A stretch of 29,158 nucleotides of DNA from a virus, in the IMG/VR virus record IMGVR_UViG_3300030104_000593, positions 1-29,158 of that record. The stretch is one strand, 5' to 3'. Position 1 is the stretch's first letter. Each line of letters starts with the position of its first letter. The position numbers and the translations under genes were made by a program. Below, piece by piece: positions 1-8,269 of this stretch. Under the pieces are notes generated by a model. The model searched no databases and was not told the origin of the DNA. It saw only the letters and a list, made by a program, of their open reading frames with translations.

Positions 1-82
1 GCGATATTCTTTTAATTGTTTTATTTCTTTTTAATTTTTTCAATACTTCTTCCTGCAAAATATGCAGAATATACAACCATCA
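1..82. repeat. Left copy of terminal direct repeat (circular closure)
   Basis: Bases 2-82 are identical to bases 29078-29158; base 1 (G) differs from base 29077 (A). The simplest reading is a circularly closed contig whose ends overlap, giving a genome of about 29,076 bp. The repeat lies over the end of the holin gene and, in the right-hand copy, the open frame upstream of the metallophosphoesterase, so it is coding sequence rather than a special terminal structure. A real short terminal repeat cannot be excluded from sequence alone. Confidence 0.9.
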
Positions 83-404
83 TTAGTGTTTGATAGACAG
101 GAACGTAAATGGGGTTCATTGTGAAACTGCCTAAGTTGCCATCAAAAAAAGATATTATTACAAATATCATAGTTAAAAAAGCAAGGGTGATAGGACGAAT
201 GTTAGCAGGTAACCATCCTGCTTTAGCATCAGCTTCCCACCTTCTAGTTACTTGCTCCTGAGCATTGCTCTCAGCTTTAGTTAAAACTTCTTGCAATTTA
301 ATTTTTAATTCTTTCTTCTCGACAGGGCTAGAGTGTAATTCATCAACAATGTTATGAACATTTTTCAATACATCACTTCCTAGTATTTTTCCTATAATAC
401 TCAT
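21..404 (-). CDS. Holin-like protein, GTA-type 3TM holin family
   Basis: A protein of 127 aa that probably forms the inner-membrane lesion at lysis. The N-terminal half is a charged helix (about residues 1-60). It is followed by a WLPANIRP motif and two hydrophobic segments (about 73-88 and 98-120), then a lysine-rich C-terminus. A Trp-Leu-x-x-Asn-Ile-Arg-Pro motif leading into membrane segments is typical of the GTA_holin_3TM group (from memory, not searched). The ATG at 404 is preferred over an in-frame GTG at 410, because its ATGA overlaps the stop of the upstream M15 peptidase by 4 nt, the coupling style seen through this operon. It is the last gene of the leftward lysis cassette. Across the circle junction its stop overlaps a possible ATA start of the metallophosphoesterase. 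Confidence 0.7.
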   Translation of the reverse strand: MSIIGKILGSDVLKNVHNIVDELHSSPVEKKELKIKLQEVLTKAESNAQEQVTRRWEADAKAGWLPANIRPITLAFLTMIFVIISFFDGNLGSFTMNPIYVPVYQTLMMVVYSAYFAGRSIEKIKKK

Positions 405-898
405 AAGCACTTATACTCTATTGGTAAACGGTATTTTGTTTTATTATTATCATCTTTATAAGCTACTAAAACCTGCTTTCTATTGTCATTTACTTTCCAA
501 CTTATATGAATCCAATCAGGATAATCAGAATCATTTTCTAATGTTGCTCCACCAAATTCTAATATGCATTGGTCAAATTCTAAGCCTAAGTCTATTAAAG
601 CATTATATATTTTTATATTATCCATTTTACCACGCTTAATATATTGCAGGTCTACCGCTTCAGCTTTTGCGTGTTGGCTATTAATGTGAGAACCTATTGC
701 AACACAAAGCTCTTCAGACCTGTAGCCACTCGTCACCCTTAATGCACCTACTTCATTCCTGAGTGGTTGAAGAATGGCAGTGGCTAGAAGTCTTAATTTA
801 ATGATTTGTTCTTTAGACGGAGTGTTGTCTATATTTTTTCTTAAGGCGGTAGAACTGTATATAAGTTCTTGCAATGTGAAGTTTTTACTTAGTCGCAT
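401..898 (-). CDS. Peptidase M15A-type endolysin
   Basis: A 165-aa zinc peptidase of the M15A (D-Ala-D-Ala carboxypeptidase-like) family, probably the endolysin that cleaves peptidoglycan cross-links. The family signature is visible: SGYRS at 57-61, His76 and Asp83 in SQHAKAEAVDL (zinc ligands), and the last ligand His131 in WIHIS. The usual Gly of SxHxxGxAxD is Ala here (residue 79). No signal peptide is evident, consistent with holin-dependent release. The length fits single-domain phage M15 lysins. It overlaps the upstream thioredoxin-like gene by one base (TAATG) and the downstream holin by 4 nt (ATGA), so peptidase and holin are probably translated together. Confidence 0.88.
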   Translation of the reverse strand: MRLSKNFTLQELIYSSTALRKNIDNTPSKEQIIKLRLLATAILQPLRNEVGALRVTSGYRSEELCVAIGSHINSQHAKAEAVDLQYIKRGKMDNIKIYNALIDLGLEFDQCILEFGGATLENDSDYPDWIHISWKVNDNRKQVLVAYKDDNNKTKYRLPIEYKCL

Positions 899-1287
899 TA
901 TTCAAATTTAGCTAACATCAACTCATCAATCCTATTCTGTACATCTTTTCTAGTAGCTTCTAGCTTAAACATTATATTAGCTTTAAAGCGTTCTTTTTCT
1001 TCACCACTCTCAAAGATTATCACAGTAGGTATACAAGTGACATTATATTTTTTTTGTAAACTAGGAAATCTTCCTATGTCTACTCTATATTTTTCGCAAT
1101 CGTTTAATTTTACAAATTCAGCAAATTCATTTGATTTGTTCCATTCTACCCAAAATTCTACAGCTACAATATCTTTTGCTATTTTATCACTAAAATCTGA
1201 TTCTGAAACAAAGTCTTGTCCTTGAGCTATTGCAAAGAAAAAGAAGAATAATGATATTAGGATGTAAAGTATATTTGTTATATTCAT
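898..1287 (-). CDS. Exported thioredoxin-fold protein lacking both catalytic cysteines
   Basis: A 129-aa protein. Residues 1-23 form a strongly hydrophobic signal peptide or anchor. The rest follows the thioredoxin plan: a strand VAVEFW (41-46), then WNKSN (49-53) where thioredoxin has WCGPC, and later CIPTVIIF (85-92) carrying the conserved cis-Pro (Pro87). Both redox cysteines are therefore Asn, so disulphide exchange by the normal mechanism is not expected; a binding or chaperone role is more likely. Cys64 and Cys85 remain but are not in the active-site position. It overlaps its upstream neighbour by 4 nt (ATGA) and the M15 peptidase by 1 nt. Fold assignment is by motif; function is unknown. 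Confidence 0.68.
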   Translation of the reverse strand: MNITNILYILISLFFFFFAIAQGQDFVSESDFSDKIAKDIVAVEFWVEWNKSNEFAEFVKLNDCEKYRVDIGRFPSLQKKYNVTCIPTVIIFESGEEKERFKANIMFKLEATRKDVQNRIDELMLAKFE

Positions 1288-1568
1288 TGCATTTTGTCTA
1301 TTTTATCTCTTAGATACTTCATATCTTCTTTTATCTCACTAACATCTTCTTGCGTTGTCATTATTGTTGCTCTTATCATTTGGTCCTTCATATCAAATTC
1401 CATCTTAGTAACTTCAGGCGGTGGAGGTTCTGGTAATAGTTTAGCTTCATTAATGTCAGCTTGCAGAGTAAACCACATACCAACTAAAGTGGCTATTAAG
1501 AAACCAATACCGCCAAGAGTCTTTATACTTATTTCAAATTTTGAATCTTCTGAAAGTTCTTTTTTCAT
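1284..1568 (-). CDS. Single-pass membrane protein with coiled coil, lysis-cassette accessory
   Basis: A 94-aa protein with a charged N-terminus, one transmembrane segment (about 17-35), a proline-rich linker (PEPPPPE at 46-52) and a C-terminal amphipathic helix likely to form a coiled coil (about 68-94). This architecture suits a lysis accessory such as an i-spanin-like protein or a holin partner. No specific family is recognised and there is no partner o-spanin lipobox nearby. It is sandwiched by ATGA overlaps with the two-TM holin-like gene upstream and the thioredoxin-like gene downstream, so it is part of the same translated unit. Confidence 0.6.
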   Translation of the reverse strand: MKKELSEDSKFEISIKTLGGIGFLIATLVGMWFTLQADINEAKLLPEPPPPEVTKMEFDMKDQMIRATIMTTQEDVSEIKEDMKYLRDKIDKMQ

Positions 1569-1801
1569 TTTTTAGGGCAATTATCACATTTATTTTTAGA
1601 AAACTTTTCTACTCCACTAATTCCAAAACAACCAAGAACAACCCAAACAAAAGAGTCATATACAAACTCATTAATTATTAGGTCTTTACCAATCCATCCT
1701 GTAAGTAAATCAGCAATCATTATTAAGCACATTATTAGAAACGCTACAAAACCTATTATAGCTTTCTCATTCCAATCGTTATTATCTTTAAATATATTCA
1801 T
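1565..1801 (-). CDS. Small two-TM membrane protein, holin-like
   Basis: A 78-aa protein with two predicted transmembrane helices (about 14-34 and 47-62) joined by a short polar loop (GKDLI). It ends in a basic, Cys-containing tail (KNKCDNCPKK). Size and topology fit class II holins. A second holin candidate is encoded at 21-404, so one of the two may be an antiholin or a pinholin-type regulator; sequence alone cannot say which. The start codon shares one base with the stop of the upstream 196-aa gene (TAATG), and its own stop overlaps the downstream gene by 4 nt. Confidence 0.62.
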   Translation of the reverse strand: MNIFKDNNDWNEKAIIGFVAFLIMCLIMIADLLTGWIGKDLIINEFVYDSFVWVVLGCFGISGVEKFSKNKCDNCPKK

Positions 1802-2391
1802 TATAATCTGTATTTAATTTTACCATTTTCTATATAAATTCCTTCAGGCTTTCTTATATGTTGACCGTTAAGGTTATACAATAAACCTGTATTTTTTGAC
1901 TTGTCTAGTATTTCTTCCATTCCACTCTCACAAGGTAATCCCGTAACACAATCCACATACTCTGTAACATACTCTATTACATCAATAAACATAGTATCTA
2001 AAACATCTGCGTAAACTGTATCAGTGACGTATATATACTGCGTTTCTACTATTGTTTCATATTCTATAATAGTTTCGTATTCTATTACTGTTTCGTAAAT
2101 ATAGACAGTGTCACAAGGTGGAGGTGGTGGAGGTGGAGGTGCAGCACACGCTTCAATTGGTGTTGGTAATACACCCTCTGCTTCATCACTAGCATCAACA
2201 CAATCTTCCCATCCGTCACCTATCCAATCTGTCTGCACACAACCATCAGGAGCGTACTGAGTCCAATTAGAAGGGTCATCACCACAATAAAAGCCATTAG
2301 CGTTAGCACAGTCTATACATAATTGCTGATAGTCATATTCTTGACTAAATGCAAAAGAAGAAATAAATAATAATAATAGTAATTTTTTCAT
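1801..2391 (-). CDS. Secreted LDLa-like / polyproline / repeat protein with sorting-domain-like C-terminus
   Basis: A 196-aa mosaic protein. Residues 1-17 are a typical flavobacterial signal peptide ending FSQ. Residues about 25-82 are Cys-rich and contain GDGWEDCVDASDE, close to the calcium-binding signature of LDL-receptor class A modules (CDGxxDCxDGSDE), with the first Cys of that signature replaced by Gly. A Pro8 run (85-92) follows, then Thr/Glu/Tyr/Val-rich imperfect repeats (about 93-147). The end is a short domain with LYNLNGQ (171-177) and GIYIENGK (184-191), resembling C-terminal sorting tails of Bacteroidota secreted proteins (type IX secretion type A). It may be displayed on the infected cell or carried on the virion; no function is demonstrated. 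Confidence 0.6.
   Translation of the reverse strand: MKKLLLLLFISSFAFSQEYDYQQLCIDCANANGFYCGDDPSNWTQYAPDGCVQTDWIGDGWEDCVDASDEAEGVLPTPIEACAAPPPPPPPPCDTVYIYETVIEYETIIEYETIVETQYIYVTDTVYADVLDTMFIDVIEYVTEYVDCVTGLPCESGMEEILDKSKNTGLLYNLNGQHIRKPEGIYIENGKIKYRL
2042..2097. repeat. Short tandem repeats inside the 196-aa secreted protein gene
   Basis: On the plus strand, GTTTC-initiated units begin at 2042, 2054, 2072 and 2090. The units at 2054-2071 and 2072-2089 are 18 nt and differ at 4 or 5 positions. They encode the ETIIEY/ETIVE-type repeats. Such in-frame units can expand or contract and change the length of the linker. Confidence 0.75.
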
Positions 2392-2393
2392 TG

Positions 2394-3401
2394 TTAAAAC
2401 ATTAAGTAATTAAAACCAAATTTGCACTCATAGATAGGTTTTTCCCAATAGTTGACGTATGTGCCTTCTACAAAAACCCCTAAATGCTTAGTTATTCTAA
2501 GCCCTGCAACAACGCCACCATCAACATCTAAAGTGACTCCATCATACTCATAACTATATTCACTAAGCCCATAGTGTATAGGTAAGAAATTTACCCATAA
2601 ATGTAACCAATGCTCTTTGCTATACTTATAGTAAGCTACTCCAATAGCCATAGAAAGCTCATAGACGCTTCCTAACGCGTCCAATTGCTCTCGGTTATAG
2701 TTAGCTATAGCTTGACCAAAATAATGCTTGTAGAACTCATCATTTGACGTTGCTAATAATTCATCACCTGAAAACCAATGCCAATCGCCTTGCACATATT
2801 CGTTAGAATATCCAAAATCTTCAGCTAAATCATTAAACGTGCTTTCACCGCTTACCCAAAAATCTTCAATAGGAAGTATATGGTAAACAGGGTGCTGACG
2901 AGCCACAGCCCCCAACGTAAAATCGAAGTTACCTTTTGCAAGTCTAAACCTCGTATCAAAAGAATTAAATTCCAAATCTCTTCTTTCATCATTTTTCATT
3001 TGTATTTTGGTTACACATTTGTTGCCTAAGTATCTGAGCCAAAAATCCGAGTTATTAAATCTGTCACCACGATTACGGATAAATGAGTAATTAAGTAAAT
3101 ACTCCCAACCAATGCTATTGCCAATAGTAACATTATCAGCAACAGCTTTCTCAGTACCATAGTACCAAGTCTTAATTTTTTGTTCATATGAAAAACGAGC
3201 TACCTTACGCAATCCTAGTGTTAGATTGTAGTCGTAAGGATTAATTTTTGTAACATCTTCGTATCCTTTAGCAACAGCTATATAGTTTTGATTTTCTACC
3301 ATACTTGTATTAATACTCATAGAAGTATAAAAGGTAGAATACTTAAAAAAGCCACTTTGACTAAATGATAAAAACGGTAATAGTAATAGTAAATACTTCA
3401 T
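2394..3401 (-). CDS. Phage-encoded outer-membrane beta-barrel-like protein
   Basis: A 335-aa protein with an N-terminal signal peptide (MKYLLLLLPFLSFSQ). The body alternates polar and hydrophobic or aromatic residues in many short stretches (for example SMAIGVAYYKY, VVAGLRITKHLGVFVEGTYV). It ends in a terminal Phe (FGFNYLMF), the classic signature of outer-membrane beta-barrels recognised by the BAM complex. No enzyme motif was found. Its position between a fibre-like gene and the secreted 196-aa protein, with an ATGA overlap to the fibre gene, makes it a late-expressed exported product. Possible roles are remodelling the host surface (receptor masking, superinfection exclusion) or weakening the outer membrane at lysis. 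The barrel call is inferred from sequence pattern. Confidence 0.6.
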   Translation of the reverse strand: MKYLLLLLPFLSFSQSGFFKYSTFYTSMSINTSMVENQNYIAVAKGYEDVTKINPYDYNLTLGLRKVARFSYEQKIKTWYYGTEKAVADNVTIGNSIGWEYLLNYSFIRNRGDRFNNSDFWLRYLGNKCVTKIQMKNDERRDLEFNSFDTRFRLAKGNFDFTLGAVARQHPVYHILPIEDFWVSGESTFNDLAEDFGYSNEYVQGDWHWFSGDELLATSNDEFYKHYFGQAIANYNREQLDALGSVYELSMAIGVAYYKYSKEHWLHLWVNFLPIHYGLSEYSYEYDGVTLDVDGGVVAGLRITKHLGVFVEGTYVNYWEKPIYECKFGFNYLMF

Positions 3402-6781: not shown

Positions 6782-7267
6782 TTAATAAGCACCTGTTGAT
6801 GTTACATATACAGCTTCGGTGTCTGTGTCATTAGTTGTGTATTCGGTATAAACTACAGGCTCACTAGATGAATGTGATAATCCATCAGCAACACTTAAAT
6901 TCATAACACCGTAATAGACTATATTTAATCCTGTAGGGTCTAGGTTTGCTGTTGCTGTATTTTCATATACTATTATATCATAAAATCCTAGCGGAAAATC
7001 TGTAGAACCAACATAGATTACCCCTTGTAATAAATTTTCTGCTGCTGAATTGGTTGTGCATAGTGTTTCTAGTTGCACATATCTTTCTTTCTTTGTAAAG
7101 TTAGCAGATGATGAATAAACTTTTGTATTAGATGTAAATTGACTTGTTATTCTAATCAAGGGTCTAAATGTGTTTGCTTTGTCATTAAATTTATCAAATA
7201 TATCTATTGACACCAAATTTTGGAATTGAAAGTCTAAAGGATTTTGTCTTACTTTAAATTGAAACAT
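6782..7267 (-). CDS. Tandem structural paralogue C (third of three)
   Basis: A 161-aa protein without signal peptide, predicted mostly beta. It shares a layout with the two genes immediately upstream: start MFQ, an IDIFDKF segment (about 23-29), a central KERYVQLE strand, DFPLGFYDIIVYEN (about 92-105), and an end motif NDTDTEAVYVT. No known family is recognised. It sits between the tail-tube gene and the portal, so a minor virion component (decoration, adaptor or fibre base) is plausible. It starts 2 nt after the stop of the preceding paralogue. Confidence 0.6.
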   Translation of the reverse strand: MFQFKVRQNPLDFQFQNLVSIDIFDKFNDKANTFRPLIRITSQFTSNTKVYSSSANFTKKERYVQLETLCTTNSAAENLLQGVIYVGSTDFPLGFYDIIVYENTATANLDPTGLNIVYYGVMNLSVADGLSHSSSEPVVYTEYTTNDTDTEAVYVTSTGAY

Positions 7268-7269
7268 AT

Positions 7270-7812
7270 CTAAAAAGTTATATATACAGACTGTGTGTCT
7301 GTGTCGTTATCTGTATATTTATCGTATTGTACTGATTCAAAATTTGTTGCATCAGAAGCAGTTGATCCTTCCATATTTAAAACCCCATTAAATAAAGTTG
7401 AGGTTATGTATTGTGGATCATTACTCACAGGGACGGCAGTAGTATATATGGTTACATCATAAAACCCTAAAGGGAAATCTACTGTTCCAACATTCATATT
7501 TGCTATCTGTAAATTTTCAGTTAAAACACCACCGGTAGAATAAAAGACTTTTATAGGAATAGAGCGTAAGTATTTATCTTCAGGACTAGTCCATCTTGGT
7601 CTATTGTTATTTCCAATTTTAAAAAAAGAAACGTATTTACTTTTTGATGTTGCTTGACTAGTAAATTGTACAAGGAGATTAGGTGATTGTAATACATATT
7701 CACCTGATACAAGTGACACACTTACACTATCCATTTTATCAAATAAATCACACTCCATTGTAAAGAAGTTGTTAAAGTTACTTTCGTTTTTTGATATTGT
7801 TGCTTGAAACAT
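7270..7812 (-). CDS. Tandem structural paralogue B (second of three)
   Basis: A 180-aa protein, the longest of the triplet. It keeps the shared landmarks MFQ at the start, CDLFDKM, DFPLGFYDVTIY in the C-terminal half, and NDTDTQSVYIT just before the stop. It differs by an insertion in the middle (around FFKIGNNNRPRW). Beta-rich, no Cys pattern or catalytic motif. It starts one base after the stop of paralogue A, so the three genes are tightly coupled. Their divergence is high, suggesting old duplications kept by selection rather than a recent assembly artefact. A virion role is inferred from position. Confidence 0.6.
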   Translation of the reverse strand: MFQATISKNESNFNNFFTMECDLFDKMDSVSVSLVSGEYVLQSPNLLVQFTSQATSKSKYVSFFKIGNNNRPRWTSPEDKYLRSIPIKVFYSTGGVLTENLQIANMNVGTVDFPLGFYDVTIYTTAVPVSNDPQYITSTLFNGVLNMEGSTASDATNFESVQYDKYTDNDTDTQSVYITF

Positions 7813-7813
7813 A

Positions 7814-8269
7814 TTACCCTGCTGTTATATATACTGCTTTATTATCTGTATCATTAGTACTATACTTATTATAATTTACTTCAGGTACTTCTTCACTTGA
7901 AACATTTGCTATCCCTTGATATGCGATACTTATAGTATTAGCAATATCAGTATTTAAATCTGCATTATTTTCATATATAGTCATATCATAAAATCCGTAA
8001 GGATAGTTTTTATTGCCAAAAGAAACTGTACCCACAGTCGGTAAAGGAATTTCGTCTATTGTTAATTGCATAGAAACATATCTTTCTTTATAAGTCCAAT
8101 CAATACCACTACCAAAAGCACCTATAAGTGATACATAACTTTTTTTAGTATATTGACTTTTTAAAACAACTAAAGGCGTAAATAAGTTTTGCTTATTAAC
8201 AAAGTTGTTCCAAATATCTATATTAAATGTAACTGTATTACTATCCGATTTTTTTATCAGTTGTACCAA
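7814..8269 (-). CDS. Tandem structural paralogue A (first of three), TTG start
   Basis: A 151-aa protein aligned with the other two copies by its start (MVQ versus MFQ), IDIWNNF, KERYVSMQ, NYPYGFYDMTIYEN and the closing NDTDNKAVYIT. The start codon is TTG at 8269. There is no ATG in the right place, and the Met-x-Gln start shared by the paralogues supports this choice. The gene overlaps the preceding 60-aa ORF by 29 nt, which favours coupled re-initiation at the weak codon. Product unknown; probably a minor structural protein. Confidence 0.58.
   Translation of the reverse strand: MVQLIKKSDSNTVTFNIDIWNNFVNKQNLFTPLVVLKSQYTKKSYVSLIGAFGSGIDWTYKERYVSMQLTIDEIPLPTVGTVSFGNKNYPYGFYDMTIYENNADLNTDIANTISIAYQGIANVSSEEVPEVNYNKYSTNDTDNKAVYITAG

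Follow-up and report, generated by a model that had tools for sequence, protein, structure and literature searches.

A late-operon cassette of exported and membrane proteins

What do exported and membrane proteins do in the late operon of a phage, directly ahead of its endolysin gene? This question is raised by the IMG/VR virus record IMGVR_UViG_3300030104_000593, all 29158 bases of which form the window analysed here. Its late operon ends on the minus strand with genes for the portal, a DUF6712 protein and a fibre-like protein, followed by the five genes that we call BAR (2394..3401), LDL (1801..2391), mem78 (1565..1801), mem94 (1284..1568) and TRX (898..1287), the neighbouring M15 peptidase, which is the endolysin (401..898; PF08291, E 1.2e-10; phrog_894 endolysin, E 4.7e-29), and the holin (21..410; phrog_3427 holin, E 1.8e-22). 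A first-pass annotation had drawn the five-gene cassette at 898-3401, and we found it to be real: all ORFs are on the minus strand and the joints of the cassette are as it gave them. From BAR onwards there is a gap of 2 nt between BAR and LDL, and there are overlaps of 1 nt (LDL-mem78), 4 nt (mem78-mem94), 4 nt (mem94-TRX), 1 nt (TRX-M15 endolysin) and 10 nt (M15 endolysin-holin). The two small membrane proteins that it described are present, but lie together between LDL and TRX instead of being interspersed among the exported ones. Strong TM-like hydrophobic segments are found in the window only in TRX, mem94, mem78, the holin and a 466-aa putative tape measure; BAR and LDL have short signal peptides besides.

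The genes of the cassette are joined so closely in the late operon that no space is left for a promoter of their own. A Bacteroidota-type promoter motif matched twice in the window, which is chance level, and not once inside the cassette, while matches in a sigma-70 promoter scan were below chance.

In three sister contigs of similar size (L112, L120 and L121), the sequence following the holin corresponds to the other end of the window, from 29.1 kb downwards, and in a fourth (L115) it matches the window from 28.3 kb. Since post-holin sequence matches the opposite window end, the window comes close to being a complete, permuted genome. No gene for a tyrosine integrase was detected. Elsewhere in the window, three consecutive genes at 6782-8269 (161, 180 and 151 aa) resemble tandem paralogues, with similar N-termini and the common ending (T)NDTD..(A/S)VYIT.

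A Bacteroidota host is likely because the cultured phages closest by terminase (~36% identity) have mostly Bacteroides and Parabacteroides as hosts. The only matches in a search of bacterial genomes for a host were two contigs filed in a Woesearchaeota MAG (L148 and L149; PBPJ01000041.1 and PBPJ01000028.1), in which BAR follows a gene of ~3000 aa and, in L148, mem94 and TRX are present too. These are probable misbinned phage contigs.

BAR, mem94 and TRX recur together in uncultured marine viruses

BAR, LDL and TRX each occur in tens of IMG/VR loci, the TRX profile has at least 530 confirmed relatives, and the gene set is common to hundreds of uncultured marine viral contigs. That the combination might be unconserved in related phages, which the first-pass annotation had regarded as fatal to its reading, is not what we observed, as the order is conserved in IMG/VR contigs. 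In all 224 distinct IMG/VR TRX genes that have upstream sequence, mem94 is directly upstream, most commonly with an overlap of 4 nt or 1 nt. BAR lies within 4 kb of mem94 and TRX, on the same strand, in 111 of 114 contexts. Among eight checked BAR contigs, which were truncated or had the pairs split, five carry TRX; of the other three, L216 and L217 have BAR within ~170 nt of the sequence end. A few contigs have BAR-LDL and mem94-TRX 5-7 kb apart on opposite strands, with both pairs present.

In a distant branch of BAR (27-28% identity), the order is BAR-mem94-TRX-M15 or mem94-TRX-BAR-M15; LDL is absent and mem78 mostly so. As these distant relatives keep BAR-mem94-TRX-M15 without LDL, we take BAR, mem94 and TRX to be the core, and LDL and mem78 to be add-ons of one branch. 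The earlier proposal of a coordinated set acting in the envelope gains from the conserved order across hundreds of contigs, the conserved export signals and the inseparability of mem94 and TRX; the core is, however, smaller than five genes.

Among 50,697 phage records, BAR, LDL and mem94 found no match, and this type of TRX was absent, the search giving only weak, partial matches to other thioredoxins. A literature search found no such gene combination. The module is real and widespread, and undescribed in the collections that were searched.

We further compared divergence between genes, ignoring kinship. Within the cassette, the genes whose divergence best followed that of TRX were BAR and mem94 (r 0.78 for both); M15 and holin gave 0.43. 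In a wider set, the value for BAR and M15 (0.84) exceeded that for BAR and TRX (0.73). Late-operon linkage by itself can be enough to hold genes together. One 68-kb phage contig (L142) encodes a staphylococcal-nuclease homologue within the cassette region (7152-7514).

A predicted outer-membrane barrel and a thioredoxin fold without its catalytic cysteines

Export signals had been noted on three proteins of the cassette, and all three are conserved among homologues. In BAR (335 aa), a signal peptide with a hydrophobic h-region, an AxA-like site and Gln at +1 is present in 212 of 218 homologues. We counted 11 amphipathic strand peaks, compared with 5.3 in shuffles, of which 1 in 200 reached 11; the signal was weaker with a narrower alignment, where 29 of 200 shuffles reached the observed value. 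One branch ends in a C-terminal beta-signal of the FGFNYLIF type. These features support, but do not prove, that BAR is an outer-membrane beta-barrel. No credible relatives of the family were found in Pfam, PHROGs, NCBIfam or PDB. Phages are known to encode outer-membrane proteins: lambda Lom and PA-2 Lc/NmpC are examples, each a single gene of a temperate phage. BAR resembles them as a putative phage-coded outer-membrane protein near late or lysis genes, but is tied to mem94 and TRX instead of standing alone.

TRX matched the Pfam Thioredoxin family PF00085 (E 2.7e-6; 27.8 bits, above the cutoff of 23.5), and its family profile found PDB thioredoxins with E-values down to 1.7e-11. It shares with thioredoxins the profile fold and Pro-Thr at the cis-Pro position, but differs from them in being exported and in having NxxN for the catalytic CxxC across the family. 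None of the 226 TRX sequences contains CxxC and nearly all contain [WF]NxxN, with Asn at both catalytic Cys positions (N50 in 95%, N53 in 99%). Because CxxC is replaced by NxxN, TRX is incapable of thiol redox chemistry at this site, and we rejected it as a redox enzyme. Conservation of the Asn pair in relatives down to ~31% identity suggests that the site is still used, presumably for binding rather than thiol chemistry. TRX would be an uncommon example of a thioredoxin fold that seems to have been retained for binding after its chemistry was lost. A canonical thioredoxin (WCVPC) was seen in an ORF of the ssRNA phage record NC_073930.1 (L294:154-564), which is unusual for such a phage and possibly reflects a chimeric assembly.

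A signal peptide with an h-region, an AxA-like site and Gln at +1 was detected in 207 of 218 TRX homologues. The invariant Q24 is as expected of a signal-peptidase cleavage site that has Gln at +1. Only 25 of 218 homologues have a possible lipobox, and most members have no membrane anchor. Conservation of signal peptides in nearly all relatives also speaks against the idea that these are virion-associated proteins, which would attach after export and lysis. Their late position adjoining the fibre-like gene is compatible with it, but virion assembly is cytoplasmic, and we regard this idea as very improbable.

LDL, mem78 and mem94

LDL (196 aa) has an LDLa-like, Cys-rich head followed by a repeat stalk that varies in length. 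Its signal peptide (AxA-like site, Gln at +1) is found in 124 of 125 homologues, with Q17 invariant, and 37 of 40 sequences have nine cysteines. The match to Pfam LDLa (E 0.0058, 17.3 bits) is below the cutoff of 24.1, but LDLa came up again when the family profile was compared with solved LDLa domains in PDB (E 0.009). A 'sorting-like tail' had been read at its C terminus, but neither TIGR04183 nor PF18962 matched even at E 10, and we dropped the idea of a T9SS C-terminal sorting domain. This weakens a reading in which BAR and LDL, encoded adjacent or almost so, form a surface structure on the infected cell whose purpose is not lysis but dispersal or adhesion, while TRX assists folding in the periplasm. 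The nine cysteines and the repeat stalk would suit such a structure. However, TRX without CxxC could not catalyse disulfide formation, and LDL is missing from the distant core; we hold this reading to be improbable.

The protein mem78 has two hydrophobic segments, which are predicted to be TM segments, and is a candidate holin or antiholin. A relative is encoded directly ahead of the endolysin in the cultured Flavobacterium phage immuto, which points to a role in lysis for mem78. The protein mem94 has one TM segment at about residues 13-31, followed by ~57 residues of charged, heptad-like tail that resembles a coiled coil. Its N-terminal flank is the more positive one in 63% of members, so charge leaves the orientation undecided. 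Some members gave weak profile matches to holin/antiholin and Rz-like families. These matches, the immuto relative of mem78 and the inseparable mem94-TRX pair would all be accommodated if mem94-TRX and mem78 acted in the periplasm to modulate the holin or endolysin, with BAR as an independent outer-membrane moron. BAR accompanies mem94-TRX in almost every context and does so even at ~28% identity, which argues against its independence, and we rate control of lysis timing or of the endolysin as unlikely.

The core as a candidate for outer-membrane disruption

Either M15 or a holin lies within 4 kb of TRX in 95 of 121 contexts, a count that leaves out DUF5675, against ~52 expected by random placement within those loci, an expectation that depends on the loci fetched. 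Where a locus has both genes, the median distance from TRX to M15 is 125 nt. No recognised lysin, DUF5675 gene or holin was found within 4 kb in 19 of the 121 contexts. In larger phages without linked M15, a DUF5675 gene and/or a holin is often near.

In any frame of the near-complete genome, no ORF with a lipobox was found on the coding strand; four candidates were all antisense. Since no lipobox ORF is present on the coding strand, the genome appears to have no recognisable spanin. A survey from 2025 reported that Bacteroidetes phages have only unimolecular spanins (PMC12596118), and Kongari et al. (2018) listed Croceibacter and Bacteroides phages among the spanin-less ones and proposed an OMP as a possible o-spanin (PMC6139136). 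The cassette was first singled out on the premise that export signals are seldom required by lysis proteins; this is too sweeping, as spanins do require them.

Two functions had been offered for the cassette, superinfection exclusion and a step of outer-membrane disruption, and the second fits better. It is favoured by the late position without promoter space, the short distance to the endolysin, the enrichment of M15 and holin genes, the absence of a lipoprotein spanin and the predicted parts in the inner membrane, periplasm and outer membrane. Our preferred reading, tentative at a probability of about 0.42, is that the core may be a lipoprotein-free trans-envelope module taking part in outer-membrane disruption at lysis, acting like a spanin but outside the spanin families.

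The main rival, which we consider unlikely, is superinfection exclusion or receptor masking. Here BAR, with LDL at the surface, would occupy or alter the receptor, and mem94 and TRX would prevent DNA from passing; alternatively, released progeny would be kept off debris. The exported and membrane-bound nature of the proteins and the variability of the LDL stalks would suit this role, and within the 29-kb group BAR, LDL and TRX (median identity to the window 67%, 52% and 44%) diverge more than the portal (89%). In contrast, BAR is more than 60% identical between contigs without detectable portal relatedness, and both the linkage to the endolysin and a late operon without room for a separate promoter speak against exclusion.

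If the core does disrupt the outer membrane, mem94 would be anchored in the inner membrane and extend its tail into the periplasm, where it would bind its translationally coupled partner TRX. TRX would serve there as an adaptor without catalytic activity, docking to BAR in the outer membrane. Holin firing and the removal of peptidoglycan by the M15 endolysin would then allow the linked complex to destabilise or fuse the outer membrane, as spanins do elsewhere. LDL is possibly a stalk bound to BAR, and mem78 could serve as a second holin or as an antiholin. Two points weigh against this model: with ~57 residues in the mem94 tail and ~105 in TRX, the bridge looks short for the periplasm, and in most members TRX is unanchored.

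Like the two-component spanins (lambda Rz/Rz1), the module has a small overlapping gene pair, mem94-TRX, beside the endolysin, a putative inner-membrane protein with a coiled-coil-like tail and predicted parts in both membranes. It differs from them in having no lipoprotein, in the thioredoxin fold of the coupled partner and in an outer-membrane part that would be a beta-barrel. With unimolecular spanins (T1 gp11) it would share a role in outer-membrane disruption without Rz/Rz1, but these have a lipobox and a C-terminal TM segment, and no protein of the module has both. We tested the lipoprotein criterion, found no lipoprotein in the module and did not file it as a spanin.

The means by which phages without spanins breach the outer membrane of Gram-negative hosts are still an open question (PMC6139136), for which the module is a concrete candidate present in hundreds of environmental contigs. 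The broader claim is more doubtful: that a beta-barrel, a redox-dead thioredoxin adaptor and an inner-membrane coiled-coil protein make up an undescribed class of lipoprotein-free phage outer-membrane disruption, widespread in uncultured marine phages probably of Bacteroidota and not found in cultured ones.

Three minor observations concern neighbouring lysis genes. In large phages lacking linked M15, DUF5675 proteins (L142:14623-15111 and L157:5056-5547) adjoin the holin or BAR; DUF5675 is a possible lysin family, but having no known function it was rejected as a lysin in our counts. A lipoprotein-like family (KVLAVTxEGDTIQLDVNSLRPRVYQNIYHTYPYYH), to which no Pfam or PHROG entry matched, was found at 22 loci (among them L219:11143-11574 and L229:11874-12302); in some of the distant loci its gene is close to BAR or M15. 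Finally, in the cultured phage immuto (L293:8344-9007), gp187 has a TM segment and a coiled coil, and gp186 has a signal peptide and a C-terminal TM segment but no visible lipobox; the two resemble a lipoprotein-free spanin-like pair.
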